Below, in pieces: positions 25,844 through 52,927 of a stretch of DNA of 54,136 bases (position 1 is the stretch's first letter; each line of letters starts with the position of its first letter). The stretch lies in IMG/VR virus record IMGVR_UViG_3300006853_000020, positions 1 to 54,136 of that record; one strand, 5' to 3'. The translations under genes were made by a program, and so were the position numbers. The notes under the pieces are model-generated. The model saw nothing but the letters and a program-made list of their open reading frames with translations. It had not been told where the DNA came from and made no database searches. The stretch is from a virus.

Positions 25844-26482
25844 GTACCGAGACTAACATCGGTATCAGTGGGGCAAATACAGGCGGTACAGAAGTATATT
25901 CAAAAAACTTTCTGGCCCGTGGAACTGCAACCGATACCCCCACGAACGAAGATTGTTATCAGGGAACAAGACTCTTGGCAGGTGCTCAAGCAGAAGTGTG
26001 ATTACTTACGGCGAGAGATGAAGGATAGGGATCGGTATATTTCCAAACAGGATTCGCTGATTGCAAAATGTGATAAGTTCATCGACCAATGCACGATGAA
26101 ACTGCCCAAAGTAGGGCGAGTGCCAAGCGTCCGGTGTGCTGATTGTCGCAAGCCACATCCCTTAACCGATTACAACCTGCGAGTTCCAAGGAATACTACC
26201 GCCGAGCACTGGCTGGTACTGCCCTATTGCAAGAGCTGCAGGCGCAAGAGGCAGACCCGGGCCGATCAAGAGGCAAGACGGATCGCCAAACAGGTTGACG
26301 AAGGAGAACACGTTACCGAGATGGCGGGAATGATGGTATCCCGGCTGAAGGGGTATCTGGAGCGGAGCGCGGAGCAGTCGAGAGTCACGGTATTCAGCCA
26401 GTCATCACGAGGGCGGCGGGTGTATCGGGGTAGCTGTCCGGAAGATGACGAGGATGGTGATGGCGACTGGGGAGACGATTAG
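25832..26482 (+). CDS. Zinc-finger protein on plus strand
   Basis: 216 residues, AAGGAGGAGCCGTCG before the ATG. CADCRKPHPLTDYNLRVPRNTTAEHWLVLPYCKSC is a zinc finger of four cysteines, followed by a basic stretch; the first part has a coiled coil (LKQKCDYLRREMKDRDRYISKQDSLIAKCDKF). The C-terminus is acidic. Function unknown. Its first codons run through promoter element 7 on the other strand, so the two are likely to interfere. Confidence 0.65.
   Translation: MGSHVPRLTSVSVGQIQAVQKYIQKTFWPVELQPIPPRTKIVIREQDSWQVLKQKCDYLRREMKDRDRYISKQDSLIAKCDKFIDQCTMKLPKVGRVPSVRCADCRKPHPLTDYNLRVPRNTTAEHWLVLPYCKSCRRKRQTRADQEARRIAKQVDEGEHVTEMAGMMVSRLKGYLERSAEQSRVTVFSQSSRGRRVYRGSCPEDDEDGDGDWGDD
25844..25868 (-). 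promoter_or_regulatory. Late promoter element 7
   Basis: CTGATACCGATGTTA (25854-25868, complement) with TAGTCT in the extended -10 position. An ATG begins 10 nt after the element. It also lies within the first 13 codons of the plus-strand gene at 25832. It should drive the 25.7-19.6 kb membrane/lysis block. Confidence 0.7.
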
Positions 26483-26706
26483 CCCTTCTTGCACATCCAG
26501 GCCTTTATTCTGTAACCGGACACCCCGCCTAGCCCGTCATTTATCGACACGATCTCCCAACCAAGCAGTCTAAGAATTGGGTTGGCGATCACTTTCCACA
26601 AGGGGCGATGACATCTGCCCGATGAAAAAATTGGAATTCGACTTCCATCTGGAAGAACAATCAAGTTAGAACGATCTTCGATTGGTGCCCAAGTAATCCA
26701 TTTCAT
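26479..26706 (-). CDS. Hypothetical protein
   Basis: 75 residues from ATG 26706 (GGGAGTTGCGCG upstream). KWITWAPIEDRSNLIVLPDGSRIPIFSSGRCHRPLWKVIANPILRLLGWEIV, with a SGYRIKAWMC tail, is a small beta-rich domain. Function unknown. It follows the FkbM methyltransferase gene in the same direction and converges with the plus-strand zinc-finger gene. Confidence 0.5.
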   Translation of the reverse strand: MKWITWAPIEDRSNLIVLPDGSRIPIFSSGRCHRPLWKVIANPILRLLGWEIVSINDGLGGVSGYRIKAWMCKKG

Positions 26707-26720
26707 CGCGCAACTCCCAA

Positions 26721-27494
26721 CTAAGCCTGCAACCACAGATTCCGCATGACCGGCTTCAACAGGTCATCAATCGAAATATCCACCGTCAAGCCATCAGTGG
26801 TGATATCCCGCAGTCGAAAACTCTTGGCAATAGCCCCAGCGAAGAACTGAGCATCAGGGTAACGGGCAGGCTCCCACTCCATGACGATGATGATGTTCGG
26901 GTTGCGGTCGATGGTCTTCTGCATGCCATCCCAAGCGTCCCGTTCGCCACCTTCGATGTCCATTTTGATGAAGTCGATCTTATCCTCTTCACCATCTATT
27001 GTTACAACTGAGACGTTTTCCTCACCATTTGGAGAAAGCCTGCTGCCTCCCCCATCAGTGCGGAGAAATCTGCCATCAGTGTCTTCGTTTCCGGCTGCCT
27101 CTTGATAACATTTCACCCAGTGCTGCCCATTGGCTCGTACGGAACGCTCGCACAACACAACATGTCGATGGTTCGGTTCAAAAGCAATCACCTTGCCAGT
27201 AGGTCCCACCAGATCAGCCATCAGCACTGTGTAGTAACCACACCATGCTCCAACGTCCAAGCACGTCCACCCGGGCTGGATGGCCCGGCCAATGGCCATT
27301 GTAACCCAAGGCTCCCAGTAGCCATCGAGCATGAGCCAGGGAGCCATGTCGTAATTCAAAGGGTCAACGTACATGTTGAACCGATTGATAACTCGACACA
27401 ATACCGCATCGCCTAGGAAAGCAGTCCTGGCATTTGCCCGGCAAGCGTTTTCGATCTGGTCTCGGTTGTGGTTCATCAGTTCTCTAGTTGTCAT
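26721..27494 (-). CDS. FkbM-family methyltransferase (1)
   Basis: 257 residues from ATG 27494 overlapping the radical SAM stop. WTCLDVGAWCGYYTVLMADLVGPTGKVIAFEP is the S-adenosylmethionine-binding motif I; DFIKMDIEGGERDAWDGM is the acidic catalytic segment of FkbM enzymes, which methylate sugar or polyketide hydroxyls. It forms a three-gene overlapping set with a radical SAM/SPASM enzyme and a glycosyltransferase. Confidence 0.85.
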   Translation of the reverse strand: MTTRELMNHNRDQIENACRANARTAFLGDAVLCRVINRFNMYVDPLNYDMAPWLMLDGYWEPWVTMAIGRAIQPGWTCLDVGAWCGYYTVLMADLVGPTGKVIAFEPNHRHVVLCERSVRANGQHWVKCYQEAAGNEDTDGRFLRTDGGGSRLSPNGEENVSVVTIDGEEDKIDFIKMDIEGGERDAWDGMQKTIDRNPNIIIVMEWEPARYPDAQFFAGAIAKSFRLRDITTDGLTVDISIDDLLKPVMRNLWLQA

Positions 27495-28348
27495 GATGTC
27501 ACGCAATCCTTTCGACTTTTACAGTTACCGCAGGGGATGCGCCTGTCTGTCTTGTGCCACATATCTCGGATTTGAATCATCTCGGCGGATTCCCAGACCT
27601 GTTTCAATGTTCGTTCACCAATATTGCCTAATCCCCAATCATCCATGCCCACGCAGCACGGAATAACTGTACCGTCCGCTGTGACCATTAGATAGCGATT
27701 CGGCATGTCGCACTCAGCACTCATTGACCGTGGAGTAGCCAAGGTTTCGCACAACACCTTGGGATGCCCTGCCATCTCTGGGCGTAGAAAACCATTGATC
27801 GGTAGAGAATTGGGCCATGTTCGTGGCTGCTTCAAATAGAGAAAGATGTTGGGTCTGATAGTGTAGGGGAATAGCTCGTCCATTAGCCGATGGTAGTGCG
27901 GTTGAGCACCTTCTGAGCAAACCATCTGAATATAAACGCGGTAATTCTGCGATGGCTGCGATAAGTACAGTTGAGCATTCGTGAGACATCGTTCCACGAA
28001 GTCATTTTTCGCCGTCCACGGGACAGATAGAATCAAGTTGAGTTTCTTAAACTTCCGTAGATCATCAGCCAACTCGGGAAGCTTTAAGCAATTGGTACTT
28101 AGCCAGTATTCCGGGATGATGGATTCAGCAAGCCTGAGAATGCTGATAAGGTCTGTGTGTAGCGTAGCTTCACCTACACCATGATAATTCATCGTTCGCA
28201 CACCGAGCGATGCACATTCCCGAATAAGACGAAATGCCAATTCCGTTGGCATGGATTTACGTTTCGTGGTTCGTTGCTGCCAGGTGCAATAATCGCAGAC
28301 GGTATTACAACTACTCATTAACTCCAAGTGTACTTCATCCAGCTTCAT
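27491..28348 (-). CDS. Radical SAM/SPASM enzyme
   Basis: 285 residues. CNTVCDYC (Cys14, Cys18, Cys21) is the Cys-x3-Cys-x2-Cys iron-sulphur site; NYHGVGEATLHTD is the radical SAM GGE-like strand. The C-terminal region VIPCCVGMDDWGLGNIGERTLKQVWESAEMIQIRDMW...CGNCKSRKDC is a SPASM domain with additional clusters. SPASM enzymes modify peptides or sugars. Rare in phages. Overlaps both neighbouring genes by 4 bp. Confidence 0.9.
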   Translation of the reverse strand: MKLDEVHLELMSSCNTVCDYCTWQQRTTKRKSMPTELAFRLIRECASLGVRTMNYHGVGEATLHTDLISILRLAESIIPEYWLSTNCLKLPELADDLRKFKKLNLILSVPWTAKNDFVERCLTNAQLYLSQPSQNYRVYIQMVCSEGAQPHYHRLMDELFPYTIRPNIFLYLKQPRTWPNSLPINGFLRPEMAGHPKVLCETLATPRSMSAECDMPNRYLMVTADGTVIPCCVGMDDWGLGNIGERTLKQVWESAEMIQIRDMWHKTDRRIPCGNCKSRKDCVTS

Positions 28349-29151
28349 ATCAGCTTCCTCAGTTCATTCAGGTAACTATCAATCTCTCTCGACCAAGGGA
28401 TTGATCGCTTGCCCTTCAGTTGATTGCTAGTGTACGTATGGTTGCCCAGTTGCGGTTTAATGTGAATTCTGTGTTCCCACATATCAGAACCGTCGAACCA
28501 CTTCTGCATCAGTCCCCAGTTTCCCCCACCAGGAGCATAAGGTGGAACTGCATACGTTTGTCCTGCAAGCCGGGCTGCAATCGCTGGCGTGGTCTTGTCG
28601 CCATACACGATCTTGTAAACTAGGTCACTGTAGGAGTTCAGCACCACTGTCAGATGCAGAGCCAGCCCCCAGGGCCGTTTATCGATCAGGAATGCCCCTG
28701 TCTCTAAGTCCCATGCTCTCTCTGTTGGCAATCCAAACATTTCAAACACCTGCGGTTTGATCAGTTCAAACTTAGTGCAATCCCGTTGGAACACTGCCCC
28801 GCTGCCAAGAAAACGTGGATCATTCAAAGTGAATGTCGGGTCTCGCATCGGGTAGCAATCAGCATCCAGGAAGATGACCCGCCTGAAAGATGACTGCTGC
28901 ACAGCGTAGAACTTCAGTTCCCAGCCATTGAGGATTCGTATCGGCTTGGTCGTTCTTCTCTCGTCTGCATCGCAGCAAGCCACGTCGTAGGGTTCAACGA
29001 TCTTCTGCCAAGCTTCGGGCATTTCGTTGTTGCGCCCAAGATACCAAAGCTCGATAGGCAGCTTGCACCCATGATGACGAATGAGCCTGATGTTGCAGTA
29101 GGCGGCTGCAAAGTACTTACCCCCGCCGACTATTACGATCCCATCACCCAC
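28345..29151 (-). CDS. Glycosyltransferase (Mnn1-like)
   Basis: 268 residues. IFLDADCYPMRDPT carries the DxD metal/sugar-nucleotide motif; IVIVGGGKYFAAAYCNIRLIRHHGC, GWELKFYAVQQSSFRR and WDLETGAFLIDKRPW are conserved blocks of the mannosyltransferase-like GT families. It probably adds a sugar to a surface glycan or virion protein. Together with the radical SAM enzyme and FkbM methyltransferase it makes a glycan-modifying cassette. Confidence 0.8.
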   Translation of the reverse strand: MGDGIVIVGGGKYFAAAYCNIRLIRHHGCKLPIELWYLGRNNEMPEAWQKIVEPYDVACCDADERRTTKPIRILNGWELKFYAVQQSSFRRVIFLDADCYPMRDPTFTLNDPRFLGSGAVFQRDCTKFELIKPQVFEMFGLPTERAWDLETGAFLIDKRPWGLALHLTVVLNSYSDLVYKIVYGDKTTPAIAARLAGQTYAVPPYAPGGGNWGLMQKWFDGSDMWEHRIHIKPQLGNHTYTSNQLKGKRSIPWSREIDSYLNELRKLI

Positions 29152-29680
29152 GGAAGCCTTCCTTTTCCTTTTGGATGATGGAACGGAACAGGGCCCAGAC
29201 GTTGGGGTCTTTGATCCATTCGCCGTTGACGGGGAGTTCGTCGGGAAGTTCCTGATATAGCGCAGCCTGTGCTACATTGGCTTTTGCCTCCCACCTATCA
29301 CACTTCCCCGTACACCAAGCCAACGTGGTATAACCATCATGCCCACCGCCACCATGGCACCGTTGAAGAGTCGTCTGCCCAGAGCATTGCCGACAAGAGG
29401 TATCAAGCTTCCGGGCTGTTTCTGATAGCCCCTTGGCTTCCTCATTTGTCAGCCGATGCGGATCAAGATGCCTGCACTGCCTAGCAATAGGCAGGGAGCG
29501 GAGGAGTTTCTTGGGGGCATCAACCTTTTGACTCCCACGCTTCTTCTGCCACAGATCACGATATGCTTGGGCAAGCGGAGTTAATTGTTGAGACAGTACC
29601 AGCGTGTGCCCGCGATGGTGCCGTTTGCAATCCAAGCACCATGCCCCAGTCTCACGCTGCTCAAGGCGGCAAGGGGTCAT
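29144..29680 (-). CDS. Cys-rich hypothetical protein
   Basis: 178 residues with three zinc knuckles: CLDCKRHHRGH, CRHLDPHRLTNEEAKGLSETARKLDTSCRQC and CHGGGGHDGYTTLAWCTGKCDRW. The Trp/Cys pattern of the last part resembles small planctomycete-type zinc domains. Overlaps both neighbours. Function unknown; virion or modifying-enzyme accessory possible. Confidence 0.55.
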   Translation of the reverse strand: MTPCRLEQRETGAWCLDCKRHHRGHTLVLSQQLTPLAQAYRDLWQKKRGSQKVDAPKKLLRSLPIARQCRHLDPHRLTNEEAKGLSETARKLDTSCRQCSGQTTLQRCHGGGGHDGYTTLAWCTGKCDRWEAKANVAQAALYQELPDELPVNGEWIKDPNVWALFRSIIQKEKEGFRG

Positions 29681-30360
29681 AGCGTCACCTCAAGAGTGAG
29701 GGTTGTTAGTTCGCAGTTTTGGCACCCGGTCTGGCCGACTTGAATGAGATCGCCGTCGCAATTGATTAATCCGCACGACACCGGAGCCGACAGACTGATA
29801 AAGAATGGATCACACTCCACAAGTCCTTCTACCCCGCATACATCTGGCCCGTAGGGTTGGCCTTGATAAAGAACATTGTCGTTGGCATAGCTGGTTCCGT
29901 TCCAAAGAGCATTGGTTGTGATGGAATAAGCCTGAACCACCGCTCGCCAGCGTTTAGGGTCAGAAAAAAAGCCACCAGTGGATTCACACCAAATCCATAC
30001 ATACAAGTCGGGGGTCTCACTCCAAGCTGTAATACCCCCGCCGCAATCAAGACACCCTCCGTCCACCAAGTCCGTCGAAGTTCCCTCGTAAGATAGCCCT
30101 AAACCCGCATTACAATTAGCTGTTCGGTTCAGGGTGATCGACTTGGTTCCGGCACAAGACGTCACCGTGGCTTGCAAAGTAGCTGGGGGGCTATTGTTGA
30201 GTCCTGCGGCCGTGCAATAGCCACAACATGCCTGGGAGTTGGGGCCGTCACCGCCACTCCCTGACCCACTTCCCCCGCAGCATGGCTTGCAGAGCTTTGC
30301 CGTCGCCACAGCAAGCTTCTGTGTAAGCGTCAGGCCCGGTGGAAGCTCAAACGGTGGCAT
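29677..30360 (-). CDS. Cys-rich virion protein (tail tip)
   Basis: 227 residues with a flexible SGSGSGGDG linker and many cysteines in a beta-rich fold (SCAGTKSITLNRTANCNAGLGLSYEG). Similar Gly/Ser-linked, Cys-rich domains occur in tail-tip proteins. Immediately follows the 30363-30932 gene (2 bp gap). Role inferred from position at the end of the tail module. Confidence 0.55.
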   Translation of the reverse strand: MPPFELPPGLTLTQKLAVATAKLCKPCCGGSGSGSGGDGPNSQACCGYCTAAGLNNSPPATLQATVTSCAGTKSITLNRTANCNAGLGLSYEGTSTDLVDGGCLDCGGGITAWSETPDLYVWIWCESTGGFFSDPKRWRAVVQAYSITTNALWNGTSYANDNVLYQGQPYGPDVCGVEGLVECDPFFISLSAPVSCGLINCDGDLIQVGQTGCQNCELTTLTLEVTL

Positions 30361-30362
30361 TG

Positions 30363-30932
30363 TTATTCCACCGGGGTCACAGTGTTACCGTTAATCGTGA
30401 ATACGTGCGTGGTGCCATCGCCGCAGTCTACGGTGAAGGTGTTGCCACCGGAGCCGGAGCCTTCTGCCCCAGCGCCGCCAATTATCACCCAGTGGCTTGC
30501 AGCCTTCTTGAGCAATACATTCTGGCCAGCAAGCCAGGAATCCCCATTAAGCGGATAGGCATAGTTGGCCCCAGATGTTCCGGTTTGAGGCAGAGTCGTT
30601 GTCACGCCATTGGGGACAATCACGCCCTTCCAAGGGAAGTCGTCGTAAATCTGATCAAAGGCATAAGCCAGGTAGCCTTCCTCGTCTGTGAATCCTTCGC
30701 CAGCAGGATCCAGAGAGAATCCACTTCCGCCACTTCCACTGCCTTCGGCTCGAATCTGGCCGTAGATGAACACTTGAGGTGATGGCACCTCAGTAGGCAT
30801 AGTGCCGCCCTGGACATGCTCCCCCTGATAGCGGCTGATAGAATCGAGTTGCTCATCAGTACGACGCATCCACTGCCGCTGAGGAGGGCTAGCGTCGTAG
30901 GGAATCCGGGTTGGAGTGCGCGGGGTGAACAT
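30363..30932 (-). CDS. Virion protein, tail tip/fibre-associated
   Basis: 189 residues from ATG 30932 (stop of the preceding gene overlaps as TAATG). Gly/Ser linkers (EGSGSGGSGFSLD, GAEGSGSGGNTFTVD) connect beta modules, and DGTTHVFTINGNTVTPV ends in a short repeat-like strand. Probably part of the tail tip. Confidence 0.6.
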   Translation of the reverse strand: MFTPRTPTRIPYDASPPQRQWMRRTDEQLDSISRYQGEHVQGGTMPTEVPSPQVFIYGQIRAEGSGSGGSGFSLDPAGEGFTDEEGYLAYAFDQIYDDFPWKGVIVPNGVTTTLPQTGTSGANYAYPLNGDSWLAGQNVLLKKAASHWVIIGGAGAEGSGSGGNTFTVDCGDGTTHVFTINGNTVTPVE

Positions 30933-32104
30933 TATGGCCCCGCTGGCAACGCAGGTGGCTGAATGCACTCAGGCGGGATCCAGAATAGCTTTCTGAAGTC
31001 CACCAGGTCGATGAGAGGGTTTCCTGCGACTACTGAGGTTGTTCCGTCTGCGCTAGTCCTATACAGCCTCAACCGGGTAACTCCAGCAGCATCCTTAACC
31101 GTCTTTCGCACGTAGTTATGGCCAACTACAGCACCCGCTCCGGTGGGGCTGTTGTCGATGTTGTGGACCTTGCGGAAGCCATATTGCACGTTCCAGTATC
31201 GTCGTCCCATTCGCAGGGGCTGGCGAACGATATCAGCGGAAACAAAGTGCAGGGTTTCTTTCGGTTGGCCTGCGGTGTAATCAGGAGTGGGAAAGATGGC
31301 GTTGGAGTTCACTCGCCCGAAGCACAGGTTGATCGCCGCAATCGGGTCGTAGGGCAGATCGTAAATGTACAGCCAGAAGTCTGCGATGTTGTCCAAGACG
31401 CTGGGCTTCTGCTCATATTGAACTGTACCCAGGGGTCCGCCTTCCTGCCCTGTCGTGGGATAGCCAACAATCTTCAAGGCCTCAGAAGGGTACTGAAAGA
31501 AGATGCTTGCAGGCTTCTGAACGATTCGAGCATAGCGAAGCCACTCCCGACAACAGCCGATCGTTCCCGACCCTGCGGATCCGCCACCGTTGTAGACTTC
31601 AGCATCTGAGTAAAGGTCGTAGTCCAAAGCAGCGAAGGAAACCAGTATCTTCGCATAAGTGCCTTTCGGCCTGTTCACTGAGAGGGAGGGTGCACCGTCG
31701 TTGCTCTTAGCGCCATCGGGCATTGCCACGGCACGAACTGCATGCACCCAATCAATCGGCACCGGTGGAGTAGATCCATCCACCAGCCCCATGTGATAGC
31801 CAACAGGCAGCTTGCGATGAACATGTCGCCCATCGTAGGTCGTGGTCCCCGGCGTGCCGTACCCATCTGCCGACACTCCATTAGTGCCAGCAGCATTGAT
31901 TTTGGCAAAGCCCACCATGTTTTCGATGAAATTAAATCGGTCAGCCCAAGCAACAAGGAAGGTGCGTGTGCAGCCACTTCCTTCGGGTGAGAACTGCTCT
32001 ACTAATTCAGGATCGCTACGTTCTTCGCTGTACGCAATGCTATAAGAGGCACCCGTCGTGTAGTTTTCACAAGTGAGACTTTGCTGGAGTGGACGATCCG
32101 CCAC
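30932..32104 (-). CDS. Tail tip/distal tail protein
   Basis: 390 residues; no recognised family, but size, position after the tape measure and beta-rich composition with repeated Gly turns fit a distal tail or baseplate protein (FVSADIVRQPLRMGRRYWNVQYGFRKVHNID near the C-terminus). The GTG start at 32104 has AAGGG upstream. The frame is also open back to the transcript start predicted from promoter element 6, 15 codons earlier. Confidence 0.6.
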   Translation of the reverse strand: MADRPLQQSLTCENYTTGASYSIAYSEERSDPELVEQFSPEGSGCTRTFLVAWADRFNFIENMVGFAKINAAGTNGVSADGYGTPGTTTYDGRHVHRKLPVGYHMGLVDGSTPPVPIDWVHAVRAVAMPDGAKSNDGAPSLSVNRPKGTYAKILVSFAALDYDLYSDAEVYNGGGSAGSGTIGCCREWLRYARIVQKPASIFFQYPSEALKIVGYPTTGQEGGPLGTVQYEQKPSVLDNIADFWLYIYDLPYDPIAAINLCFGRVNSNAIFPTPDYTAGQPKETLHFVSADIVRQPLRMGRRYWNVQYGFRKVHNIDNSPTGAGAVVGHNYVRKTVKDAAGVTRLRLYRTSADGTTSVVAGNPLIDLVDFRKLFWIPPECIQPPALPAGP

Positions 32105-32149
32105 AGGGAATACCCTTGATTCCTGCCATCCAGAAGCTAGGTTGGCTAT

Positions 32150-32174
32150 GAATGCACGGTATCATCGGTATCAG
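32150..32174 (-). promoter_or_regulatory. Late promoter element 6
   Basis: CTGATACCGATGATA (32160-32174, complement), with TACCGT in the extended -10 position. The codon 10 nt downstream is ATA, not ATG, and is in frame with the tail-tip gene 15 codons before its GTG. It lies between that gene and the divergent plus-strand gene. Confidence 0.7.
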
Positions 32175-32203
32175 TGACTCAGAGATAAGGAGATGTCGTC
32201 CAG

Positions 32204-32716
32204 GTGATTAACTTCTTGTGTCCCAACTGCAAGAAATCCCTTAAAGCCAAGGATGAAGACGAAGGGAAAAAGGTTAAATGTAACAAGTGCGGTGAACTAC
32301 TGACGGTTCCTGCATTGGCTGATCGAGAACCGGTGGTACTAATGCAATCCACTGAGCCAGTAGTCGAAGATTCCAAAGCAATTGAAGAACCACCTAAGAA
32401 AGCATGGCAGAAAGCCTTTGCAGACGAGTTAAGCCCAAAGAAAACAGCAACAAAGGAATCGCTGTCATCTAAGTTTTTCCGCTTTATTTTCGTAACTATG
32501 CTGATCGCTGGCGGCACATATTGTTGCATTAAGTGGCTATACTTCCTGTCTGCCGTCGATAAGCACAAGACCTACATTCACACTCAAGAAAACATCACAA
32601 TCGGCGAGAGTAGCTTCGGTACGTATCACATCTTGTCGGAGATGGCAGAACCACTTGTGCTTACAATCTTCTGGGCGATATTCTTCCTGGTAGGACAGAT
32701 GAAACGTGCTAAGTAG
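32204..32716 (+). CDS. Zinc-ribbon membrane protein
   Basis: 170 residues from GTG (AAGGAG upstream). FLCPNCKKSLKAKDEDEGKKVKCNKCGELLTVP is a zinc ribbon of the kind frequent in planctomycete proteins (CPxCxxxxxxxxxxAGKxVxCxxCxxxL). Two transmembrane helices follow, FFRFIFVTMLIAGGTYCCIKW and LVLTIFWAIFFLVGQ. Not part of the virion; probably host-derived. Divergent from the tail-tip gene, convergent with the tape-measure gene (8-bp overlap). Confidence 0.7.
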   Translation: MINFLCPNCKKSLKAKDEDEGKKVKCNKCGELLTVPALADREPVVLMQSTEPVVEDSKAIEEPPKKAWQKAFADELSPKKTATKESLSSKFFRFIFVTMLIAGGTYCCIKWLYFLSAVDKHKTYIHTQENITIGESSFGTYHILSEMAEPLVLTIFWAIFFLVGQMKRAK

Positions 32717-33761: not shown

Positions 33762-33764
33762 GGC

Positions 33765-34507: not shown

Positions 34508-34516
34508 ACATTCCTC

Positions 34517-34990: not shown

Positions 34991-35007
34991 GCTTCACCGT
35001 CCGTTCG

Positions 35008-35623: not shown

Positions 35624-35625
35624 CG

Positions 35626-36069
35626 CTAGCTCCATTGCACCCTGATAGTCATCCCATGCGGCTTGCCCACAACACTGTTCCCAGCCCGCCTGTCCTCTGG
35701 AGTCGCCAGACTCTTGCCCGTGGGCTTCCGCTGCCAGGCATAGCTCACCGTGCCCGTTGGCTCTCCCCCTCCGCCCCCCAGTGTCCCTGTCGCAGAAGCC
35801 GCCAGCAGCAGTTGCATTTTGCTTTCCAAGGTGGCGATAGCTGCCGGTGTTGCATTGTCTGCAAATATCTCCACCACCACTGCATAGATCGCATAGCGGG
35901 CTTGGTCGCTGGTGTACCCCTCTTTTTCTGTCGAGATCGAACAGCGGGCATAGGGTGTTCCGGTGCCAGTGTTCTGGTCAAGCTGGATGCCACCGGGGAC
36001 CGCCGCACTCAATCCAGATACAGCCGCCCAGTCAACAGCCAGCTTGCGCAGCACGTAGCTCTCGTACAT
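35626..36069 (-). CDS. Tail terminator/completion-like protein
   Basis: 147 residues. MYESYVLRKLAVDWAAVSGLSAAVPGGIQ and PYARCSISTEKEGYTSDQARYAIYAVVVEIFAD fit the DUF3168/lambda U family that caps the tail tube and joins head to tail. The ATG is exactly 10 nt after promoter element 5, so it should be the first codon of the mRNA. No ribosome binding site. Confidence 0.65.
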   Translation of the reverse strand: MYESYVLRKLAVDWAAVSGLSAAVPGGIQLDQNTGTGTPYARCSISTEKEGYTSDQARYAIYAVVVEIFADNATPAAIATLESKMQLLLAASATGTLGGGGGEPTGTVSYAWQRKPTGKSLATPEDRRAGNSVVGKPHGMTIRVQWS

Positions 36070-36094
36070 GCACCGAGAGTAGCATCGGTATCAG
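36070..36094 (-). promoter_or_regulatory. Late promoter element 5
   Basis: CTGATACCGATGCTA (36080-36094, complement), TACTCT in the extended -10 position, ATG of the tail-terminator gene exactly 10 nt later. Confidence 0.8.
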
Positions 36095-36467: not shown

Positions 36468-36676
36468 GCGGATCGCTCAAAATGAGTCCGCCTGAACTCT
36501 CCAATTTCGATAACAATCTTGGCTGTTCCGTTCAGGGTGGTCCGTGGATAAGTCCACTCCAAGACACGGTCGTAGCCGATTTGATTATCCCACTTGATTT
36601 CAAGGCCTTTATCGACTGCTTGGTCGATCTGATCGGCGAGGAATTTTTTCATAATCTGTGCTTTTTCTTTGGTCAT
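36464..36676 (-). CDS. Small head-tail connector protein
   Basis: 70 residues: KAQIMKKFLADQIDQAVDKGLEIKWDNQIGYDRVLEWTYPRTTLNGTAKIVIEIGEFRRTHFER. Overlaps both neighbours by 4 bp, in the head-tail joining block. Family unknown. Confidence 0.55.
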   Translation of the reverse strand: MTKEKAQIMKKFLADQIDQAVDKGLEIKWDNQIGYDRVLEWTYPRTTLNGTAKIVIEIGEFRRTHFERSA

Positions 36677-37368
36677 GCCACCCTCACAGTAGCCCGCATC
36701 AGTTCATCAATCCGCTGGGCATTAGTTACGCTGAGAACATCGGCAATAATCGTGGCTGCCCCTTCAGTCCAGCGCAAAACGTGTCTGTCGGGCAACAGAT
36801 CGAAGTTGCTGGCGAAGAACACGTCATACATCTTGTCGTTATCCTGTCGCCCCATCATCACTGCCATCCGCACATCGGTAGGCTGACGACGGCAAACAAC
36901 TCCAGTGGCTACGTCCGAATCGGTGGTCTGGCGGGTCAGGATGGTGCTGACGGATTGAGTCTTGAGAACGACATCGACGGTGTCGCGGAGATTGAAACAA
37001 ATCTTGGGATTGATGACTGCCAACAGCCAGTAATAGGGGTCTGCCAATGCCCTTAGAACGGTGTAAGTAACAGGTGTTGGCGTTTGCTGGGTAGGGTCTT
37101 GTTCGTTCGCGTCAGTGAGCGTATCGCCAGGCTTCCAGGGTCCAGCGCCATTGGTGTCAGCATGCTTAGAGAGTAGGTAGCTGCATTCGGGATCAACATA
37201 GGCCCCGTTGCACATTTGCCTGACTTTGTAGTTGACTCCCCCGCGTTGTGACCAGGAAACAGCAGTCGTCACGTTAGGTAGATTCGACGGCCTAACGCTC
37301 ACCATCGTGATTGCACGAGGGGTGGGGAAAGTGAATTTCAAATAGTCTGTGGCGGGATCAAGGGGCAT
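36673..37368 (-). CDS. Head-tail connector/neck protein
   Basis: 231 residues; the N-terminal half (FTFPTPRAITMVSVRPSNLPNVTTAVSWSQRGGVNYKVRQ) and the C-terminal half (VVLKTQSVSTILTRQTTDSD...RMAVMMGRQDNDKMYDVFFASNFDLLPDRHVLR) are beta-rich. First gene of the head-tail block; its ATG is 10 nt after promoter element 4. Family not recognised. Confidence 0.6.
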   Translation of the reverse strand: MPLDPATDYLKFTFPTPRAITMVSVRPSNLPNVTTAVSWSQRGGVNYKVRQMCNGAYVDPECSYLLSKHADTNGAGPWKPGDTLTDANEQDPTQQTPTPVTYTVLRALADPYYWLLAVINPKICFNLRDTVDVVLKTQSVSTILTRQTTDSDVATGVVCRRQPTDVRMAVMMGRQDNDKMYDVFFASNFDLLPDRHVLRWTEGAATIIADVLSVTNAQRIDELMRATVRVA

Positions 37369-37393
37369 GACCCCAGACTAGCATCGGTATCAG
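37369..37393 (-). promoter_or_regulatory. Late promoter element 4
   Basis: CTGATACCGATGCTA (37379-37393, complement), TAGTCT in the extended -10 position, ATG exactly 10 nt later. Confidence 0.8.
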
Positions 37394-42832: not shown

Positions 42833-42859
42833 CTGTGTTGCTCCTCGAAAGTCTGTTAA

Positions 42860-42891: not shown

Positions 42892-42912
42892 GTGATTGTT
42901 TCAATTGGCTGA

Positions 42913-44142
42913 TTAGGTGTTGGCGATCTTGAGAACGCGAGTCGGGTTGTCTGAGATGTAGGCTTCGTAGTAGCCCATTTTCAGAGTCAACTCCAAGTCT
43001 TTCCAGAAACTAGCTTCGCTGCCTGAGCCAAGCTCCTGATACCTTGGACCATAGACACGGTCGCAGAGGAAGGCTCTGGGGAAGTCACCCATGAACCAGG
43101 TGTAGACTGAAGCTGTGGCACCAGTGATTTCATCAACGTAGGGACTGGCAAGAACTTCGATTTCCATGCCAGGGTAAACGTAATCAAGTGGATTCTTACC
43201 GTCATAACGAATGGTTGCTGAAGCATAGACGGCGTTGAAGGTGTTGACTGTAATGGCGTTCTTGATCACCTGGGCCTTGGCGTAAATCACCATCGGAACG
43301 ATGATTTGCAGCTTCTTCGGCATGGCCAGGAATTCGCCACTGACCGGATCACGCATGTTGCGATAAGCCTGCAAGGCAGTATCGATGCTGGTCCAATCAT
43401 TCAGCGGAAGTGAGGTCAGGCTATTAAGCGGCGAAGGGCCAGAGGCAGCGGTGTTGTAAGTGTTGTAGGCTGTCGGCGCTCCGTCATTGAGACCGAACTT
43501 CCATTGGCCACTGGCACCCAAAGCAACCTTGAGTTGCAGGATGTTTCGGGTGATCAACCCACCGTCCATGGTGTTCTTGCAACTGCGAACAATTACAGCA
43601 GCCGTGTCAGCCAGCATCGATTCCATTGAAATCGGGCAGGCCTTTCCTCGCTTATTCTGCTTGGGATACTGGAGATAACCATTGCGAGGGCCGACTAGAG
43701 GGTATGGTTCCGTTTCAGCAACGATGCTTTCGTCCCAGCGGGTCGGACCACCAACCCAAGGAAGGTTCTGTGAGTTTTGGCGAGGGATAGACTCTTCCAC
43801 CCGGAACAGTCTGTCACCAATCAATTCAGCCGTCTCGGGAGAATCCTTGATAGCCCGCATGATCATACCGGCAGTGACGAGCTTAAAATCGCTCATGGTC
43901 ACTGCAGTGGCAGATTCCTGCAGAGCAATCTGCTGAGTGATGCCAGCGGGATTGGAGCAAAACTGCTGCGGAGTAAAGCCAAACATCCCTTGGAAGAGGC
44001 TGCCGCATTCCAAACCGCCATGTCCAAGCCGGTAATGCCCTTCTTCGACACCTTGCTTGAAGTGTTCGATGGCATTATGCTTAGTGTTTCCATCGGACGA
44101 TTCACGTAGTTCGCCCAGGAAACGGTTGAAGTTGAAATACAT
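42913..44142 (-). CDS. Major capsid protein
   Basis: 409 residues; similar to Mu gpT-like or HK97-fold capsids in length and place after the prohead protease. The central region WTSIDTALQAYRNMRDPVSGEFLAMPKKLQIIVPMVIYAKAQVIKNAITVNTFNAVYASATIRYDGKNPLDYVYPG and the end GYYEAYISDNPTRVLKIANT are typical of the fold. Strong terminator after it. Confidence 0.8.
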   Translation of the reverse strand: MYFNFNRFLGELRESSDGNTKHNAIEHFKQGVEEGHYRLGHGGLECGSLFQGMFGFTPQQFCSNPAGITQQIALQESATAVTMSDFKLVTAGMIMRAIKDSPETAELIGDRLFRVEESIPRQNSQNLPWVGGPTRWDESIVAETEPYPLVGPRNGYLQYPKQNKRGKACPISMESMLADTAAVIVRSCKNTMDGGLITRNILQLKVALGASGQWKFGLNDGAPTAYNTYNTAASGPSPLNSLTSLPLNDWTSIDTALQAYRNMRDPVSGEFLAMPKKLQIIVPMVIYAKAQVIKNAITVNTFNAVYASATIRYDGKNPLDYVYPGMEIEVLASPYVDEITGATASVYTWFMGDFPRAFLCDRVYGPRYQELGSGSEASFWKDLELTLKMGYYEAYISDNPTRVLKIANT

Positions 44143-44186
44143 GGTCAGTCACTCCGCTATTGTCTCGTAAAAGTCAGTTGATTCGA

Positions 44187-44933: not shown

Positions 44934-44966
44934 GTGTCAGACTCCGAAAATGCCGTAATTTGTGCG

Positions 44967-46136
44967 TTAGTTAACTGATGTCAGGAAGCGGGGGACGAAC
45001 TTGGGCTTGATGGGGTTGCCGTCTTTGTCCACCGACTCCTGCAGGGCCGTAGTCGTGGTGCGAATGCCGCTCTTCGTCTTCTGATCGTCGGGGATGATCT
45101 TGAGCCTGGCTTCGAGTTGAGCGATCTTGTCCTTGTCAGCCTTGAACGATTCCAGCAATGGCTCTGCCTGCTCCAGAGTTTGGCCACTGAAGGATTCGAC
45201 CAGCGCGGGAGTGATGGTGATCTTGTGCTTGGACAAGAGAGCGACGGCACCCTTGTCGCCCAACACCTTTGTCTCAAGACCTTCCTTGATCGCCGGAGTA
45301 ACCACCTTGGGTTCTTCCCCGGTCAACATCACATGCCGAGCACGTTTCGCGGTCTTCATCTGCTCATCGAAGGCCGCGTCATCGCCATCATAGCTCTCGG
45401 TGATCTTGGCGAAGACCTGTTTAAAGGCATGTTTGACCTGGTCTTCAGGAGTGGCATCGTCAGCCAGCGGGGTGATTTCGATTTCAGCCAGACTCCCCAT
45501 GCTTTCGAGGAGTGTCCCTACGCGCTTTTGCTCAGCGGGAAGGGTGGCCAGCGATTTGGCGAATTCGGTGAACGGTGTGTTTGCCACGGGTTCTGCTCCC
45601 TCAAGCAATCCGCCTGTCGCTCCCGGCTTGGAAACGAGGTCAACGGATTCGACAAGTCTGATTTTGTGAACGACTAAAACGCCAGAAGCATCGATCTGCC
45701 CGACGCTTCCACCTTCAGGAATGTTGTGCGATAGGCCGTATTGGCGTGGATTTTCCTGGCTGGCAACCTTGACCGATTGAGCCAGTTCGCCACGTTTGGT
45801 GAAGTGGAGATTGCCCCGCAGGCCATCACCAGGGACATACTTCACGCCCTTGATGTAACCAAGGACTTCATCCGGGTCGCGGGACTGAACGCCTGGCTTG
45901 GCGTGGTCTTTATAGACCGTCTTGCCTTCGTAGAGGCTGGCTGCTTCTTGTAAGCATTGTTCGGTGTAGCGTCGGCCCGAGGTCTTGTGTCTCACTCCGC
46001 CAACGTCGATGCTCTTGTTCTTGCTGGAGAAGCCGATGATCTTGACATTGGGCACACACCACGGATCATCTGCCGGGGCAGCAGTGCTCCCTTCAAAGGC
46101 TTCCAGGATGATGTGCGGGGCAAGTTCACCTTTCAT
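44967..46136 (-). CDS. Prohead protease with scaffold domain
   Basis: 389 residues. The N-terminal half has GRRYTEQCLQEA, KTVYKDHAKPG, QYGLSHNIPEGGSVGQIDASGVLVVHKIRLVESVDLVSKPGATGG, the His and Ser blocks of the assemblin/S78-type prohead peptidases. The C-terminal half is a coiled coil (LVESFSGQTLEQAEPLLESFKADKDKIAQLEARLKI), the scaffold part. First codon exactly 10 nt after promoter element 3. Confidence 0.8.
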   Translation of the reverse strand: MKGELAPHIILEAFEGSTAAPADDPWCVPNVKIIGFSSKNKSIDVGGVRHKTSGRRYTEQCLQEAASLYEGKTVYKDHAKPGVQSRDPDEVLGYIKGVKYVPGDGLRGNLHFTKRGELAQSVKVASQENPRQYGLSHNIPEGGSVGQIDASGVLVVHKIRLVESVDLVSKPGATGGLLEGAEPVANTPFTEFAKSLATLPAEQKRVGTLLESMGSLAEIEITPLADDATPEDQVKHAFKQVFAKITESYDGDDAAFDEQMKTAKRARHVMLTGEEPKVVTPAIKEGLETKVLGDKGAVALLSKHKITITPALVESFSGQTLEQAEPLLESFKADKDKIAQLEARLKIIPDDQKTKSGIRTTTTALQESVDKDGNPIKPKFVPRFLTSVN

Positions 46137-46161
46137 GTCCCCACGGTAGCATCGGTATCAG
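46137..46161 (-). promoter_or_regulatory. Late promoter element 3
   Basis: CTGATACCGATGCTA (46147-46161, complement), TACCGT in the extended -10 position, ATG of the prohead protease exactly 10 nt later. Confidence 0.8.
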
Positions 46162-46201
46162 TGCGGGCGATTTTGGCAGTTGGAACTATTTTCTGGGAAC
46201 G

Positions 46202-46210
46202 TGCTAGAAT
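46202..46210 (+). promoter_or_regulatory. Extended -10 promoter for plus-strand island
   Basis: TGCTAGAAT contains a TGn extended -10 with TAGAAT (five of six). The GTG of the next gene begins 10 bp after it, so the transcript would be nearly leaderless. The -35 is weak (TTGGAA at 46180). Confidence 0.55.
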
Positions 46211-46219
46211 GAAGTCTCC

Positions 46220-46531
46220 GTGAACATCCTCGCCGTCTGGATTCTCTCCATGCAGGCAACTTATAATGAACCTGTGGACTCACTTGGGCTACCTGTGCCG
46301 ATTTCGATCCCGTGCCGAATCACTGAGCAGAGAGATGAACCGATCCTGATCGGCGGTTGCGTTCCGTACTTTGGCCACTACACTCAGGCCTACGATTTCC
46401 TTCGCACTCAGGGCTACAGTCTGGATGCTGACGGAGAAACTGAACGTGGCATCGTGATTGACTGCTATGGCCTGCAGGCGGCGCGACAGCAGTTTGGGGA
46501 TCGGCTGGTTTCTTATTCGGATATTGTGTAA
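46220..46531 (+). CDS. Plus-strand cargo gene 1, hypothetical
   Basis: 103 residues from GTG (or the ATG at 46250). EPILIGGCVPYFGHYTQAYDFLRTQGYSLDADGETERGIVIDCYGLQAARQQFGDRLVSY reads as a compact beta-alpha domain. Three plus-strand genes interrupt the leftward late genes here, indicating an inserted cargo island. Function unknown. Confidence 0.55.
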   Translation: MNILAVWILSMQATYNEPVDSLGLPVPISIPCRITEQRDEPILIGGCVPYFGHYTQAYDFLRTQGYSLDADGETERGIVIDCYGLQAARQQFGDRLVSYSDIV

Positions 46532-46540
46532 ACTGGCCTC

Positions 46541-46777
46541 ATGTTGCACATCGAAAAAGTATCGGACATCGAGCCAGCCTACAAGAAGGCTGTATTAACC
46601 AACTCATCGCTTCACCATATCCATTCTGTTGGCAAGCACTTTCAACTTAGCGAAACTGATACGCTGAAAATGATGGTGGCACACTTGGACGAAATGGTGA
46701 ATGTCTACCAGAAAGAGAGACTTGACGCTCTGCGGGAGGAGATCGGCTTGCACCCTACAGTGAACTGGCTACGATAG
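46541..46777 (+). CDS. Plus-strand cargo gene 2, hypothetical
   Basis: 78 residues, helical: VSDIEPAYKKAVLTNSSLHHIHSVGKHFQLSETDTLKMMVAHLDEMVNVYQKERLDALREEIG. Second gene of the island. Function unknown. Confidence 0.55.
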   Translation: MLHIEKVSDIEPAYKKAVLTNSSLHHIHSVGKHFQLSETDTLKMMVAHLDEMVNVYQKERLDALREEIGLHPTVNWLR

Positions 46778-46781
46778 TGGC

Positions 46782-47069
46782 ATGAATAAAATCATGTGGA
46801 TCATCAGGGCTTTTAAGTGCTATTTCCTTGGGCATAGACTTAGCGAGTTCGGCAAGCCACCCTGTGAGTTTTGTGGGTTTGGAACACCACTCCCGACGGG
46901 CAACTGTTACGAGTGCAGGATGGATATAACAACATGCCAATCTTTCGTGCAATATCCTAATGGAACATTTCTGTGCAGTTCCTGCTGGTTCAATCAGCGG
47001 ACGGTAAATAATAGGGATCAAGCCTTCAGCCACGGGGACACCCAGCAACGGCAGTTGAAGGCAAGCTGA
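46782..47069 (+). CDS. Plus-strand cargo gene 3, zinc-finger protein
   Basis: 95 residues with CEFCGFGTPLPTGNCYEC and CSSCWF, a zinc ribbon, and an N-terminal hydrophobic stretch (KIMWIIRAFKCYFLGH). Convergent with the gpF-like gene, overlapping by 52 bp. Function unknown. Confidence 0.55.
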   Translation: MNKIMWIIRAFKCYFLGHRLSEFGKPPCEFCGFGTPLPTGNCYECRMDITTCQSFVQYPNGTFLCSSCWFNQRTVNNRDQAFSHGDTQQRQLKAS

Positions 47070-47971: not shown

Positions 47972-48108
47972 GGCTCAAGTTGCTGAATGCGATAAATAGC
48001 AAGAACCAGCAAAGAGAACTCGCACGCCAAGCCAATAACGAATAGGATAGCCACCAAAATCAAGACTATTCGAGGGCATACAGGCTTTGAATATCGATGG
48101 TCAATCAT
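47968..48108 (-). CDS. Small membrane protein in portal block
   Basis: 46 residues, one transmembrane helix (IVLILVAILFVIGLACEFSLLVLAIY). Overlaps both neighbours by ATGA, so it is tightly coupled and probably real despite its size. A membrane protein inside the capsid-assembly block is unusual. Confidence 0.55.
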   Translation of the reverse strand: MIDHRYSKPVCPRIVLILVAILFVIGLACEFSLLVLAIYRIQQLEP

Positions 48109-48995: not shown

Positions 48996-49252
48996 GGTTG
49001 CTCCTTGAAAATCGTCTTACCCAGTTCACCCTTCAACTCATCTATGATGGCAGAGTCCGTGATACGTTCGTTTGAGTACCTGTTAATCTCCTCTTGGACC
49101 TTGCAAAGTGCTGCTTGCAAGTTCTGTGGAATATACAGGTCAACGCCGCAGAATCGCATCTGTGAGATGATCGAATTTATCGAGTGGAGATATCCGAAAG
49201 TGGCCACATCGCGTATTAAGGTGGTCGCACGATCACTTGTTTTGTCTGCCAT
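48992..49252 (-). CDS. Small protein after portal
   Basis: 86 residues from ATG 49252, overlapping the end of the portal gene by 20 bp. KTSDRATTLIRDVATFGYLHSINSIISQMRFCGVDLYIPQNLQAALCKVQEEINRYSNERITDSAIIDELKGELGK. Helical. The longer open frame starting inside the portal is not used. Function unknown. Confidence 0.55.
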   Translation of the reverse strand: MADKTSDRATTLIRDVATFGYLHSINSIISQMRFCGVDLYIPQNLQAALCKVQEEINRYSNERITDSAIIDELKGELGKTIFKEQP

Positions 49253-50768
49253 CTTTGCCACCATTGCCGTTGCCCTCTTCATCACCCATTGTATCCACCC
49301 CCGGCATCTGATCCATCGCAAACTGGGGGTCATCTGCTTGGGCCTGGCGTTTGTTGGCCAACTCGTCGTCATAATCAAGCATGGCCTGAGCGCTGTAAGT
49401 CTGTGGGCTGAGGATGTTGTTGCGGAACCGAATGTCTCGAATCTGTTCCGCCGCCAGTTCATCGTTGATGACACAATCGGGTAGTGTCACATCAACGTCG
49501 CAGTACTCCAGGAAGTCGATTGGCAACAGCCCTTGAGCCATGCGGACCTGGATAACCCACAGCATGCAATCACGCCAGAAGTCGGCAAATTCGGCTTGAT
49601 TCGAGCGAATGGCAATCACGAACGGAGCGCCTGCAACCATAATGCTGGCGTAGTTGTTGTTGGAAGCATCACCGGAAGCGATGTTCTCAGGCATGTCCCA
49701 GCGGTTGGCGATGCAGAGCCTGACCAACAGGCCGACAGCCTCGATGGTCTCCAGGGTGTTGCCCTGGGGCATTGTTACGACACTGACGGTATCAGGGACA
49801 TCAGCTACCGTGCCATCGTTGGGAACAAACAGCTTTTCTTCTCGACCCGTGCGGGGATCGTAGAACGTGCCTGTAGCGGCTGCATCACGGAATCCCTTGG
49901 GCCCACCGGGCAGTGCATCTTTGTGATTTCGGAAGTAGGCAATCTTGGCTCTGGCAATCGTCCCGGCGCCCATCGCGTCCAGGATACGGTCGATCTTGTC
50001 CAGATCGTCGGCATTGGAAAAGAAGTCACTCACCCCGCGGGCAACAGACTGCACCACGTTCCGCTTGAGGTGGATGATCTGCGAGGCGGGTACAAACTGG
50101 CCATAGGGATCGGGATTGCCAGGCACACCCAGCATCCAGTTGATGTTGTAACCCAGCACCTTACAGGTATCGCCCAGCTTGTGCTGTACACCCAAGCGCC
50201 AGCCATGCAGTTCCGTCATTCCAGGTGGGTTGCACAACTGCTCTGGCTCTGGCCGACGGATAGTGGGCTCGCCCTCGTCATCACGTCCTTTGTGCCCCAT
50301 AATCTCACCGTCAACGATGGCGCAGCGAACATGCTCTTTCTCAGCACGTCGCCACTTGTTGACCTTCCGCCATTCGTCGATGATGTCCTGTGCATCGGTC
50401 AAATAGCTCTTCGGTGCCTTGATGTTCTTCGACTTGGGCACGATCTTGTAATTAGCCCCTGTCTGGAGCACAAACGAAACCAGCTTATTCACAGCCCCTT
50501 GAGCGATAGGATTGCTGGCATCGAGATAGCGGGCCAGATCGACCTGACGGAGGAGGTCGTACTCGGATAGGTTCGTGTAGAGATTCTTACCTTGAACCCT
50601 AGATTGCCTTGTGCCGATGATTTCAGCAGGCCTCCAGCCGCCACCGTAGTCGTGCCTGAGCGCCTTATAGGCAAACTCCCAGTCAGGAGCGTTGTAGGCT
50701 TCCTGGAGAGCCGTGGAGGCAGAGCCTGGGGGCATGAATGCCAGATCGGTTTGGGTGGCAAGTCTCAT
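49233..50768 (-). CDS. Portal protein (lambda type)
   Basis: 511 residues. RAEKEHVRCAIVDGEIMGHKG, HLKRNVVQSVARGVSDFFSNADDLDKIDRILDAMG and RWDMPENIASGDASNNNYASIMVAGAPFV match the conserved blocks of the lambda-family portal (PF05136). Forms the dodecameric gate of the head. First codon 10 nt after promoter element 2. Confidence 0.9.
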   Translation of the reverse strand: MRLATQTDLAFMPPGSASTALQEAYNAPDWEFAYKALRHDYGGGWRPAEIIGTRQSRVQGKNLYTNLSEYDLLRQVDLARYLDASNPIAQGAVNKLVSFVLQTGANYKIVPKSKNIKAPKSYLTDAQDIIDEWRKVNKWRRAEKEHVRCAIVDGEIMGHKGRDDEGEPTIRRPEPEQLCNPPGMTELHGWRLGVQHKLGDTCKVLGYNINWMLGVPGNPDPYGQFVPASQIIHLKRNVVQSVARGVSDFFSNADDLDKIDRILDAMGAGTIARAKIAYFRNHKDALPGGPKGFRDAAATGTFYDPRTGREEKLFVPNDGTVADVPDTVSVVTMPQGNTLETIEAVGLLVRLCIANRWDMPENIASGDASNNNYASIMVAGAPFVIAIRSNQAEFADFWRDCMLWVIQVRMAQGLLPIDFLEYCDVDVTLPDCVINDELAAEQIRDIRFRNNILSPQTYSAQAMLDYDDELANKRQAQADDPQFAMDQMPGVDTMGDEEGNGNGGKDGRQNK

Positions 50769-50793
50769 GCATTTAGGCTAGCATCGGTATCAG
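50769..50793 (-). promoter_or_regulatory. Late promoter element 2
   Basis: CTGATACCGATGCTA (50779-50793, complement), TAGCCT in the extended -10 position, ATG of the portal gene exactly 10 nt later. It lies in the 29-bp space after the terminase gene. Confidence 0.8.
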
Positions 50794-50797
50794 AGCA

Positions 50798-52408
50798 TCA
50801 CTTCTTGTTTACGTAACGGTAGGCAGTTTCCCGGGCCATAGCCAGCGCGTCCGGCCCATCGTCATGTTGCCCTGGTGCTGGCACTATGCGGAACTTCTTC
50901 AACTGGTCAATCAATAACGCCGTACCCTCGCTGTTCCGCTTAAACTTAATCCGCCTGGTCACCAGTAGGTCAGTCAGATCCAAGATACGCACAGCCTTCT
51001 TGATGCGATTCTCGAGAGGAATAATCGGCAATCGCATGTGAATACTTTTAGCCTTAGCCGACTCAGCAAGCGGGAACTCCAGCAACTGCTGAAATCCGTT
51101 CACCTCAAGTCCGATAGCGTGGGCAGTCCACTCGCTCTGCAGGTACACGAGGTAGTCGCACCAGATTTTAGTGTCCATTTTCTTAAGGAACGCTTCAACG
51201 TACACCACTTCGTTCCGGTCTTCGGCCCATCTGACGATTGCCTGATAATCCCCTTCCTTGGTATCAATACCCTTGGATGGGTCGCAACCCATGACTCGAA
51301 TCGTGGTGTCAACCGGCCATTCATCGAACCAGAATGTGTCGTCATACTCGAAATAGCTGATGTTGAATTCGGCGTTACTAGGAGGCATTGGATCGCCCTG
51401 ATGCTCGCTGGCAAACGCTCTTTCACCTTGGCTGAACCTCTTCAGCATCAACTCATAAAGCGGAACACGGTCAGGCCAGAGCACCTTGGCACCGTAATCC
51501 ATCCCACCTTCACCCGACTGATGCTGCAGATACCATTGCTCTGCCTTCTCGATTTTCTGCGGATCGTCATGCCGCCAAAGTAGTTCTTTCCACTGCTGCC
51601 ATAGGTGCATGTTGGTTGGTTCTGAAATCAGCGACTTATAGACCTTGTGGCTCCAGGTCGGCAAAGTCTTCTTCACCTGCAGAACCAGGCAGCCATCGAC
51701 CAAAGCCGTGCCGACCATGATGTAGTTTGTCTCAGGCCCGCCAGCATTAAGCACATCGGACTTGAGCCATTCTTCATCCTTCTCCAGGAGAGCCGGGCTG
51801 GTTGCGTCTTCTGAGTTCTGTGGATCATCAATAATGATCAAATCAGGCCGATAGTGCCGATGCCTTCGCCCACGTATCTTTCCCTTACCGTAGCACAGTG
51901 CCTCAATGCGAGTACCGTTGCTCAGTTCGATGGCTTCAGCTCGCCAGGGTAGTGCTGGCATGCAACTGGGGAAGTCTGCTTGCAACTCCAAGTTGTGCTC
52001 AAATTCATCGCTGATGTGCTGCAAAAACAGATTGGCATTAGGCTGTGTATCGCCCAGCAGAATGATGTACTTTTTCTTTTGGTATACCGTCTTCCAGATG
52101 GGATAAATCAGTGTTGTCCAAGTACTTTTGGCTGATCCACGTGGAGCTATTCGGCATATGCTTTCGCCGTCTGGCAATGCCTGCAAGTCACCCACAAGTT
52201 CCTCATGGAACTCGGGCATGGCGTGAGTGAAATGATGCTTGAAATACTTCAGCCCGAAGTCGAGGAGTGGTATTGCTTCTACGGGCTCAGACTCAACCAG
52301 GTCTTCAATTAACTGAAGCTCTTCTTCGTTCCAGTATTTGCTTGAGGCCAGCAGCTCCTCGAGATCTTCGTTCGTCAGTACTGAGGGGTTCTTGCTTAAC
52401 GTCTCCAT
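50798..52408 (-). CDS. terL: Terminase large subunit
   Basis: 536 residues. Walker A is APRGSAKSTW, Walker B is LIIIDDPQN, and the nuclease aspartates are GCDPSKGID and HDDGPDALAMA. Packages DNA into the head. The ATG overlaps the small subunit gene by 104 bp. Confidence 0.95.
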   Translation of the reverse strand: METLSKNPSVLTNEDLEELLASSKYWNEEELQLIEDLVESEPVEAIPLLDFGLKYFKHHFTHAMPEFHEELVGDLQALPDGESICRIAPRGSAKSTWTTLIYPIWKTVYQKKKYIILLGDTQPNANLFLQHISDEFEHNLELQADFPSCMPALPWRAEAIELSNGTRIEALCYGKGKIRGRRHRHYRPDLIIIDDPQNSEDATSPALLEKDEEWLKSDVLNAGGPETNYIMVGTALVDGCLVLQVKKTLPTWSHKVYKSLISEPTNMHLWQQWKELLWRHDDPQKIEKAEQWYLQHQSGEGGMDYGAKVLWPDRVPLYELMLKRFSQGERAFASEHQGDPMPPSNAEFNISYFEYDDTFWFDEWPVDTTIRVMGCDPSKGIDTKEGDYQAIVRWAEDRNEVVYVEAFLKKMDTKIWCDYLVYLQSEWTAHAIGLEVNGFQQLLEFPLAESAKAKSIHMRLPIIPLENRIKKAVRILDLTDLLVTRRIKFKRNSEGTALLIDQLKKFRIVPAPGQHDDGPDALAMARETAYRYVNKK

Positions 52409-52868
52409 CGAGCATCCCCATGTGCTTCATCAAGAGTTCGATGGCTCGCACCTTATCCCACAGCTTTAATTCAGTGGTCACTTCGTCGGTGCTGTTACCG
52501 TCTTTATCCGTCCATCGAGTTCTTTTGATCTTGACCGACTGAACAGCTTTAGAAGCTCGCCTGCCCGAGAGAGGAATTAGTCTACCTGTTGCCTCGTTCA
52601 CCTCGTAGTCGAGGATGTCGCTAAGGGCAACCAAGGCCAACTCTTGAATCACTCGATCCTGAGTGATCTCAACACGCTTTAATCGTTTTTTGAATTCTTT
52701 ACGAATTGCCCGCTTGATGTTAGCTTTTGTTAGCAGACGTGAAGCGGTTACTTTTATCGCCTCATCGGTGTTGCCGAAACCTGCACGTTTAGCAGCCCTG
52801 GTTGCATTCAGGTCAACCAGATACTCATTGACGAACAGTTCCCACTCGGGTTTAAGCGTCTCTGCCAT
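52305..52868 (-). CDS. terS: Terminase small subunit (Terminase_2)
   Basis: 187 residues. WELFVNEYLVDLNATRAAKRAGFGNTDEAIKVTASRLLTKANIKRAI is the Terminase_2 helix-turn-helix, and KLWDKVRAIELLMKHMGMLDGDV its C-terminal block. It recognises phage DNA for packaging. Its 3' end overlaps terL by 104 bp. Promoter element 1 lies 45 bp upstream. Confidence 0.9.
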   Translation of the reverse strand: MAETLKPEWELFVNEYLVDLNATRAAKRAGFGNTDEAIKVTASRLLTKANIKRAIRKEFKKRLKRVEITQDRVIQELALVALSDILDYEVNEATGRLIPLSGRRASKAVQSVKIKRTRWTDKDGNSTDEVTTELKLWDKVRAIELLMKHMGMLDGDVKQEPLSTDERRSRGAAGLKQILERRRASVN

Positions 52869-52902
52869 AATCCCATGCTACCACATACCGCTTCATCTCA
52901 AC

Positions 52903-52927
52903 AAACCAAGTCTACCATCGGTATCAC
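52903..52927 (-). promoter_or_regulatory. Late promoter element 1
   Basis: GTGATACCGATGGTA (52913-52927, complement), one change from the consensus, with TAGACT in the extended -10 position. The predicted start base is G; an ATG six bases later opens a 14-codon frame overlapping the terS start. Confidence 0.65.

Follow-up and report, generated by a model that had tools for sequence, protein, structure and literature searches.

Seven repeats in an uncultivated phage as probable late promoters with predicted leaderless starts

The whole virus record of 54,136 bases that was analysed here, which we call the window, comes from an uncultivated phage and carries seven copies of a compact element on the minus strand of its late region. 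Judged on its sequence, this element is probably a phage-specific late promoter of the sigma-70 type, with an extended -10 box, no -35 box, a conserved block at -25 to -16, a pyrimidine-purine start point and a dependence on a phage factor, and four of its copies would open leaderless messages.

The repeated element and its genomic setting

The late block is transcribed from the minus strand between 53 and 42 kb and is marked by the large and small terminase subunits, the portal and a major capsid candidate. RusA, a replication initiator, an exonuclease, methyltransferases and a CsrA-like protein are among the products of minus-strand genes in two stretches, one from about 14 kb down to position 1 and the other from 54.1 to 53 kb. 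Were the genome circular or permuted, these stretches would make up a single early block that leads into the late block. Two DNA methyltransferase genes (5441-6619 and 16653-17300, both on the minus strand) and, inside the late block, a gene for an FkbM-type methyltransferase (PF05050; 37399-38184, minus strand) were also noted, and the contig end at window positions 1-24 is a G-dominated run of about 24 bases, possibly a sequencing artefact. Two further genes are referred to below:

15580-16656, plus strand: integrase gene
10444-10659, minus strand: CsrA-like protein of 71 aa (PF02599, E 1.9e-6), in the presumed early block

Among the sampled genomes, the best relatives of the terminase were found in Planctomycetota MAGs, at 33-34% identity, and relatives of the portal were present in 26 of 392 Planctomycetota genomes. 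The host may tentatively be placed in Planctomycetota, for which low Shine-Dalgarno (SD) usage has been reported (PMC5397173); Thermus is likely not the host.

A pattern search of the window found the 15-mer CTGATACCGATGnTA seven times in the late region, always on the minus strand and at each position named in the original prediction. Six copies are exact and the seventh, at 52913, has one mismatch at its first base (GTGATACC...). The full element is CTGATACCGATGnTAnnnT, which spans -25 to -7 relative to a proposed +1, and its copies are as follows:

52909-52927, minus strand: putative late promoter copy 1; predicted +1 at 52902 (G, triplet GTT), so that 34 nt of leader precede the small-terminase ATG at 52868
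50775-50793, minus strand: putative late promoter copy 2; predicted +1 on the A of the portal ATG at 50768; occupies the 29-nt gap that follows the terminase gene
46143-46161, minus strand: putative late promoter copy 3; predicted +1 on the A of the ATG at 46136
37375-37393, minus strand: putative late promoter copy 4; predicted +1 on the A of the ATG at 37368; occupies a 30-nt gap
36076-36094, minus strand: putative late promoter copy 5; predicted +1 on the A of the ATG at 36069; occupies a 35-nt gap
32156-32174, minus strand: putative late promoter copy 6; predicted +1 at 32149, where an ATA stands in frame with ORF 30932-32104
25850-25868, minus strand: putative late promoter copy 7; predicted +1 at 25843, the ATG of a 13-codon ORF only

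Alignment of the seven copies bore out the proposed geometry, in which an extended -10 box, TGnTAnnnT at -15 to -7, was to be accompanied by no shared -35 and by a conserved part at -25 to -16. The extended -10 pattern is present in every copy, unlike what a generic binding site would show. Directly before it lies the almost invariant block CTGATACCGA (-25 to -16), within which TGATACCGA (-24 to -16) is invariant in all seven copies, as is TGATACCGATG when the comparison is carried on to -14; the block is not a dyad. T-12, A-11 and T-7 are kept throughout, as had been claimed, along with T+2, whereas base -13 is free. Positions -10 and -8 are G or C, so that the -10 core reads TASNST, matches three of the six consensus bases and is never TATAAT-like in its middle. 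The start point, 6 nt downstream of CTGATACCGATGnTAnnnT, is a pyrimidine followed by a purine in all seven (C-A in six copies, T-G in one), and no TTGACA-like conservation was seen at -36 to -30 across the copies.

With up to three mismatches allowed, the element matched nine times, where 2.6 matches were expected, and 100 shuffles always gave fewer than nine. On a position matrix built over -25 to -7 the seven copies scored 26.6-32.0. The next site in the window, at 8662 and lacking an ATG at +1, scored 16.0, and 30 mononucleotide shuffles reached at most 15.6. The element also holds to the late position expected of it: all seven copies lie within 25.8-52.9 kb, and none is near the integrase gene or in the presumed early region.

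Genes headed by the element and their predicted leaderless starts

An ATG begins exactly 10 nt past the 15-mer in five copies (25843, 36069, 37368, 46136 and 50768), as the original prediction had counted, although the one at 25843 opens only the 13-codon ORF. At the other four, the copies at 50779, 46147, 37379 and 36080, the ATG at +1 opens ORFs of 511, 389, 231 and 147 aa, respectively. These genes and others in the late region are:

52305-52868, minus strand: terminase small subunit (PF03592), with a short leader
50798-52408, minus strand: terminase large subunit, second cistron of unit 1
49233-50768, minus strand: portal gene, 511 aa (PF05136), predicted leaderless
44967-46136, minus strand: capsid-module gene, 389 aa, between the portal and the major capsid candidate, protease- or scaffold-like by position only, predicted leaderless
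42913-44142, minus strand: candidate for the major capsid protein, judged by gene order and length; an SD-led inner late cistron
36673-37368, minus strand: late gene, 231 aa, in the connector region by position, predicted leaderless
35626-36069, minus strand: late gene, 147 aa, in the connector or tail region by position, predicted leaderless
30932-32104, minus strand: late gene downstream of copy 6

Because transcription at four copies is predicted to begin with the first base of the gene's start codon, the resulting messages would lack a ribosome-binding leader, and three of the promoters fill gaps of only 29-35 nt, which leaves no room for one. We computed SD strength for 75 minus-strand genes, the four headed by the element and 71 others. 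At the ATGs of the four the values lie between 0 and -2.6 kcal/mol, which amounts to no usable SD, whereas the median of the others is -6.2 kcal/mol at annotated starts or -6.9 kcal/mol at best starts. This contrast gave p values of 0.012, 0.004 or 0.001, depending on the choice of start (one-sided Mann-Whitney), with only four genes in the test group. The missing SDs strengthen the leaderless reading of these four genes. Codon usage is coding-like over the first 33 codons after 50768, 46136 and 36069 and is uninformative just after 37368. Together, these data lead us to predict that four late genes are leaderless: the portal gene, the gene between portal and capsid, and two connector-region genes.

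The broader claim that virion genes as a class are leaderless was narrowed by the same analysis. Downstream cistrons of the late units have SDs, the major capsid candidate (42913-44142) among them, so the leaderless claim is limited to first cistrons. Moreover, three of the seven copies have no long ATG-started ORF at +1, and offer instead an AUA, a 34-nt leader and the 13-codon ORF. The gene downstream of copy 6 has a GTG start at 32104 with AAGGG upstream. The small-terminase ATG has its own TGGTAGCAT-N6-ATG (52868-52890, minus strand), which lacks the -25 to -16 block. Plus-strand ORF 25832-26482, whose own ATG is preceded by AAGGAGGAG when the reverse complement is read, contains copy 7 within its 5' end.

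The copies at 46147, 32160 and 25854 adjoin or overlap plus-strand ORFs (46220-47069, 32204-32716 and 25832-26482, respectively), and codon usage is coding-like in ORFs 46220-46531, 46541-46777 and 32204-32716. These opposite-strand ORFs inside the late block are probably cargo (moron) genes, and copies that lie beside them may thus restart late transcription after the cargo. Several copies would then serve to resume transcription either next to such genes or between tightly packed ones.

Mechanism and alternative readings of the repeats

TG at -15 and -14, T-12, A-11 and T-7 are the contacts that sigma-70 makes in an extended -10 promoter, and host RNA polymerase would be expected to initiate at +1 of each copy. 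At four copies the transcript would begin with AUG and be translated as a leaderless mRNA. The middle of the -10 box, which is never TATAAT-like, suggests a weak core promoter, and so poor a core points to dependence on a phage-made factor, which would read the -25 to -16 block and so make the promoters fire late. The invariant stretch at -24 to -16 offers a place for an additional factor or for an unusual sigma contact, in keeping with the original suggestion that an activator or modified sigma touches the block, which we infer as well. No activator or regulator for the element was identified among the phage proteins scanned. Two small ORFs, 53315-53515 and 5118-5444, are conceivable regulators from their early position and size, and their structure predictions were of low confidence.

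Conservation that runs almost without a break from -25 to -11 is unusual for a plain sigma-70 promoter. Together with a -10 core that avoids TATAAT, it would suit recognition of the whole 19-bp element by an RNA polymerase or sigma factor of the phage's own, in which case the start point need not coincide with the ATG. We think this unlikely, since the sigma-70 contacts are all in place and the window proteins scanned gave no family match to a sigma factor or RNA polymerase.

The confinement of the element to the late region bears on a second possibility, that the repeats are operator sites of the stoperator kind, at which a phage repressor binds an asymmetric site near gene starts and silences late transcription in a lysogen. 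Cluster A mycobacteriophages carry asymmetric intergenic 13-mers whose orientation matches transcription (PMC9283540), a likeness that gains from the integrase gene and the single shared orientation seen here. Stoperators are spread genome-wide, over promoter regions and the spaces between genes, at variable distances from starts, whereas these copies keep to the late region, with none near the integrase or the presumed early genes, and stand 10 nt from an ATG in five cases; that distance, the free -13, the T at -7 and the pyrimidine-purine step at -1/+1 fit a promoter, and we regard an operator role as quite improbable.

The fixed distance to ATG in five copies also recalls the start-associated sequences of Cluster K mycobacteriophages, asymmetric 13-mers just before gene starts for which a role in translation has been suggested (PMC3203893). 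It is very improbable that the repeats likewise act in translation, on transcripts begun further upstream, because the element has no SD-like core and the three copies with no long-ORF ATG at that distance bear the same promoter hallmarks as the rest. FliA-like, sigma-54-like and T7-like readings were dropped on geometry or for want of a polymerase gene.

The promoter reading can be extended to a regulatory one, in which a phage factor bound at -25 to -16 mediates the use of a one-piece late promoter of about 25 bp, and the leaderless first cistrons of the regulon let late messages escape CsrA-like repression of SD-led mRNAs. This extension is an unlikely one; if it were true, the late transcription switch would be coupled to a switch in translation initiation through the CsrA-like protein (10444-10659).

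Relatives, known systems and implications

The phage collection held no nucleotide match to window 30001-54136, and protein searches reached relatives at about 21-37% identity; queries with the terminase, the portal, the major capsid candidate and the 389-aa gene found no close relative. In 80 IMG/VR portal loci and Planctomycetota prophages, which are relatives at about 30% identity, portals were mostly SD-led or gave no clear signal, and a multi-copy extended -10 element before ATGs was absent. An extended -10-like site before one of these portals (L161) was single-copy and was set aside. When IMG/VR was scanned with the exact pattern of the element followed by ATG, five loci were returned with one match each; in two of them (L009 and L012), which are identical in sequence, the match immediately precedes an ATG frame, and we read the remainder as chance. 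A looser pattern matched at least 80 loci, with one match each among those listed. Recurrent upstream words in three Planctomycetota prophage regions (G125, G343 and G377) were traced to repeats of the host, dispersed or in tandem, and are not promoters; in G125 and G343 (L084-L087), both strands of these Planctomycetota genomes carry repeats around CATTCCCTCGCTTGCGCTGCGGGCTAGT and GGTCCGCACAGCGGAC in dispersed positions. Among 159 ATG genes sampled from the Planctomycetota regions, a small set, none had TAnnnT 5-7 nt ahead of its ATG, which suggests that the signal is not a general habit of these genomes.

To our knowledge, leaderless late messages are known from few phage systems only, chiefly in Thermus. 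Among the middle and late mRNAs of the Thermus phage phiYS40, the majority are leaderless (PMC3594737). The present phage would share this feature, predicted here only for the first cistrons of four late units, and differs in its integrase, its likely non-Thermus host and the long invariant block before the -10. Thermus phage P23-45 has extended -10 middle and late promoters, used by a host RNA polymerase that phage proteins modify, and its gp39 displaces sigma region 4 (PMC7403470, PMC10770324). The promoter class is alike; the -25 to -16 block is extra here, and no gp39 counterpart was identified in the present phage. A TANNNT box some 10 bp ahead of the start codon is a signature of leaderless genes in Actinobacteria and Deinococcus-Thermus (PMC3160421), and most Deinococcus genes with this box also lack a -35 (PMC12340547). 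Those host genes resemble the present case in -10 spacing and in having little or no leader, but they are scattered and have a minimal box, whereas here a seven-copy phage regulon carries a specific 10-bp upstream block. Late promoters of P1 carry an inverted repeat near -22, which the block here, not being a dyad, does not resemble. They need a phage factor that binds RNA polymerase, Lpa (PMC8198154), of which no relative was identified here. The late promoters of phiKZ have a TATG motif overlapping the start point (PMC7598289), a likeness in placement, but they are read by a phage multisubunit RNA polymerase, and no gene of that type was found among the phage proteins scanned.

Such a pairing of a compact, repeated, element-specific promoter with first cistrons predicted to be leaderless, in a phage of another kind, thus appears to be only partly precedented. 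If the reading is correct, the leaderless late strategy extends to an integrase-bearing phage whose nearest sampled terminase relatives are in Planctomycetota, and a promoter squeezed into a gap of 29-35 nt would set the start of transcription and the start of the gene at once. The -25 to -16 block would provide a concrete handle for identifying the factor.
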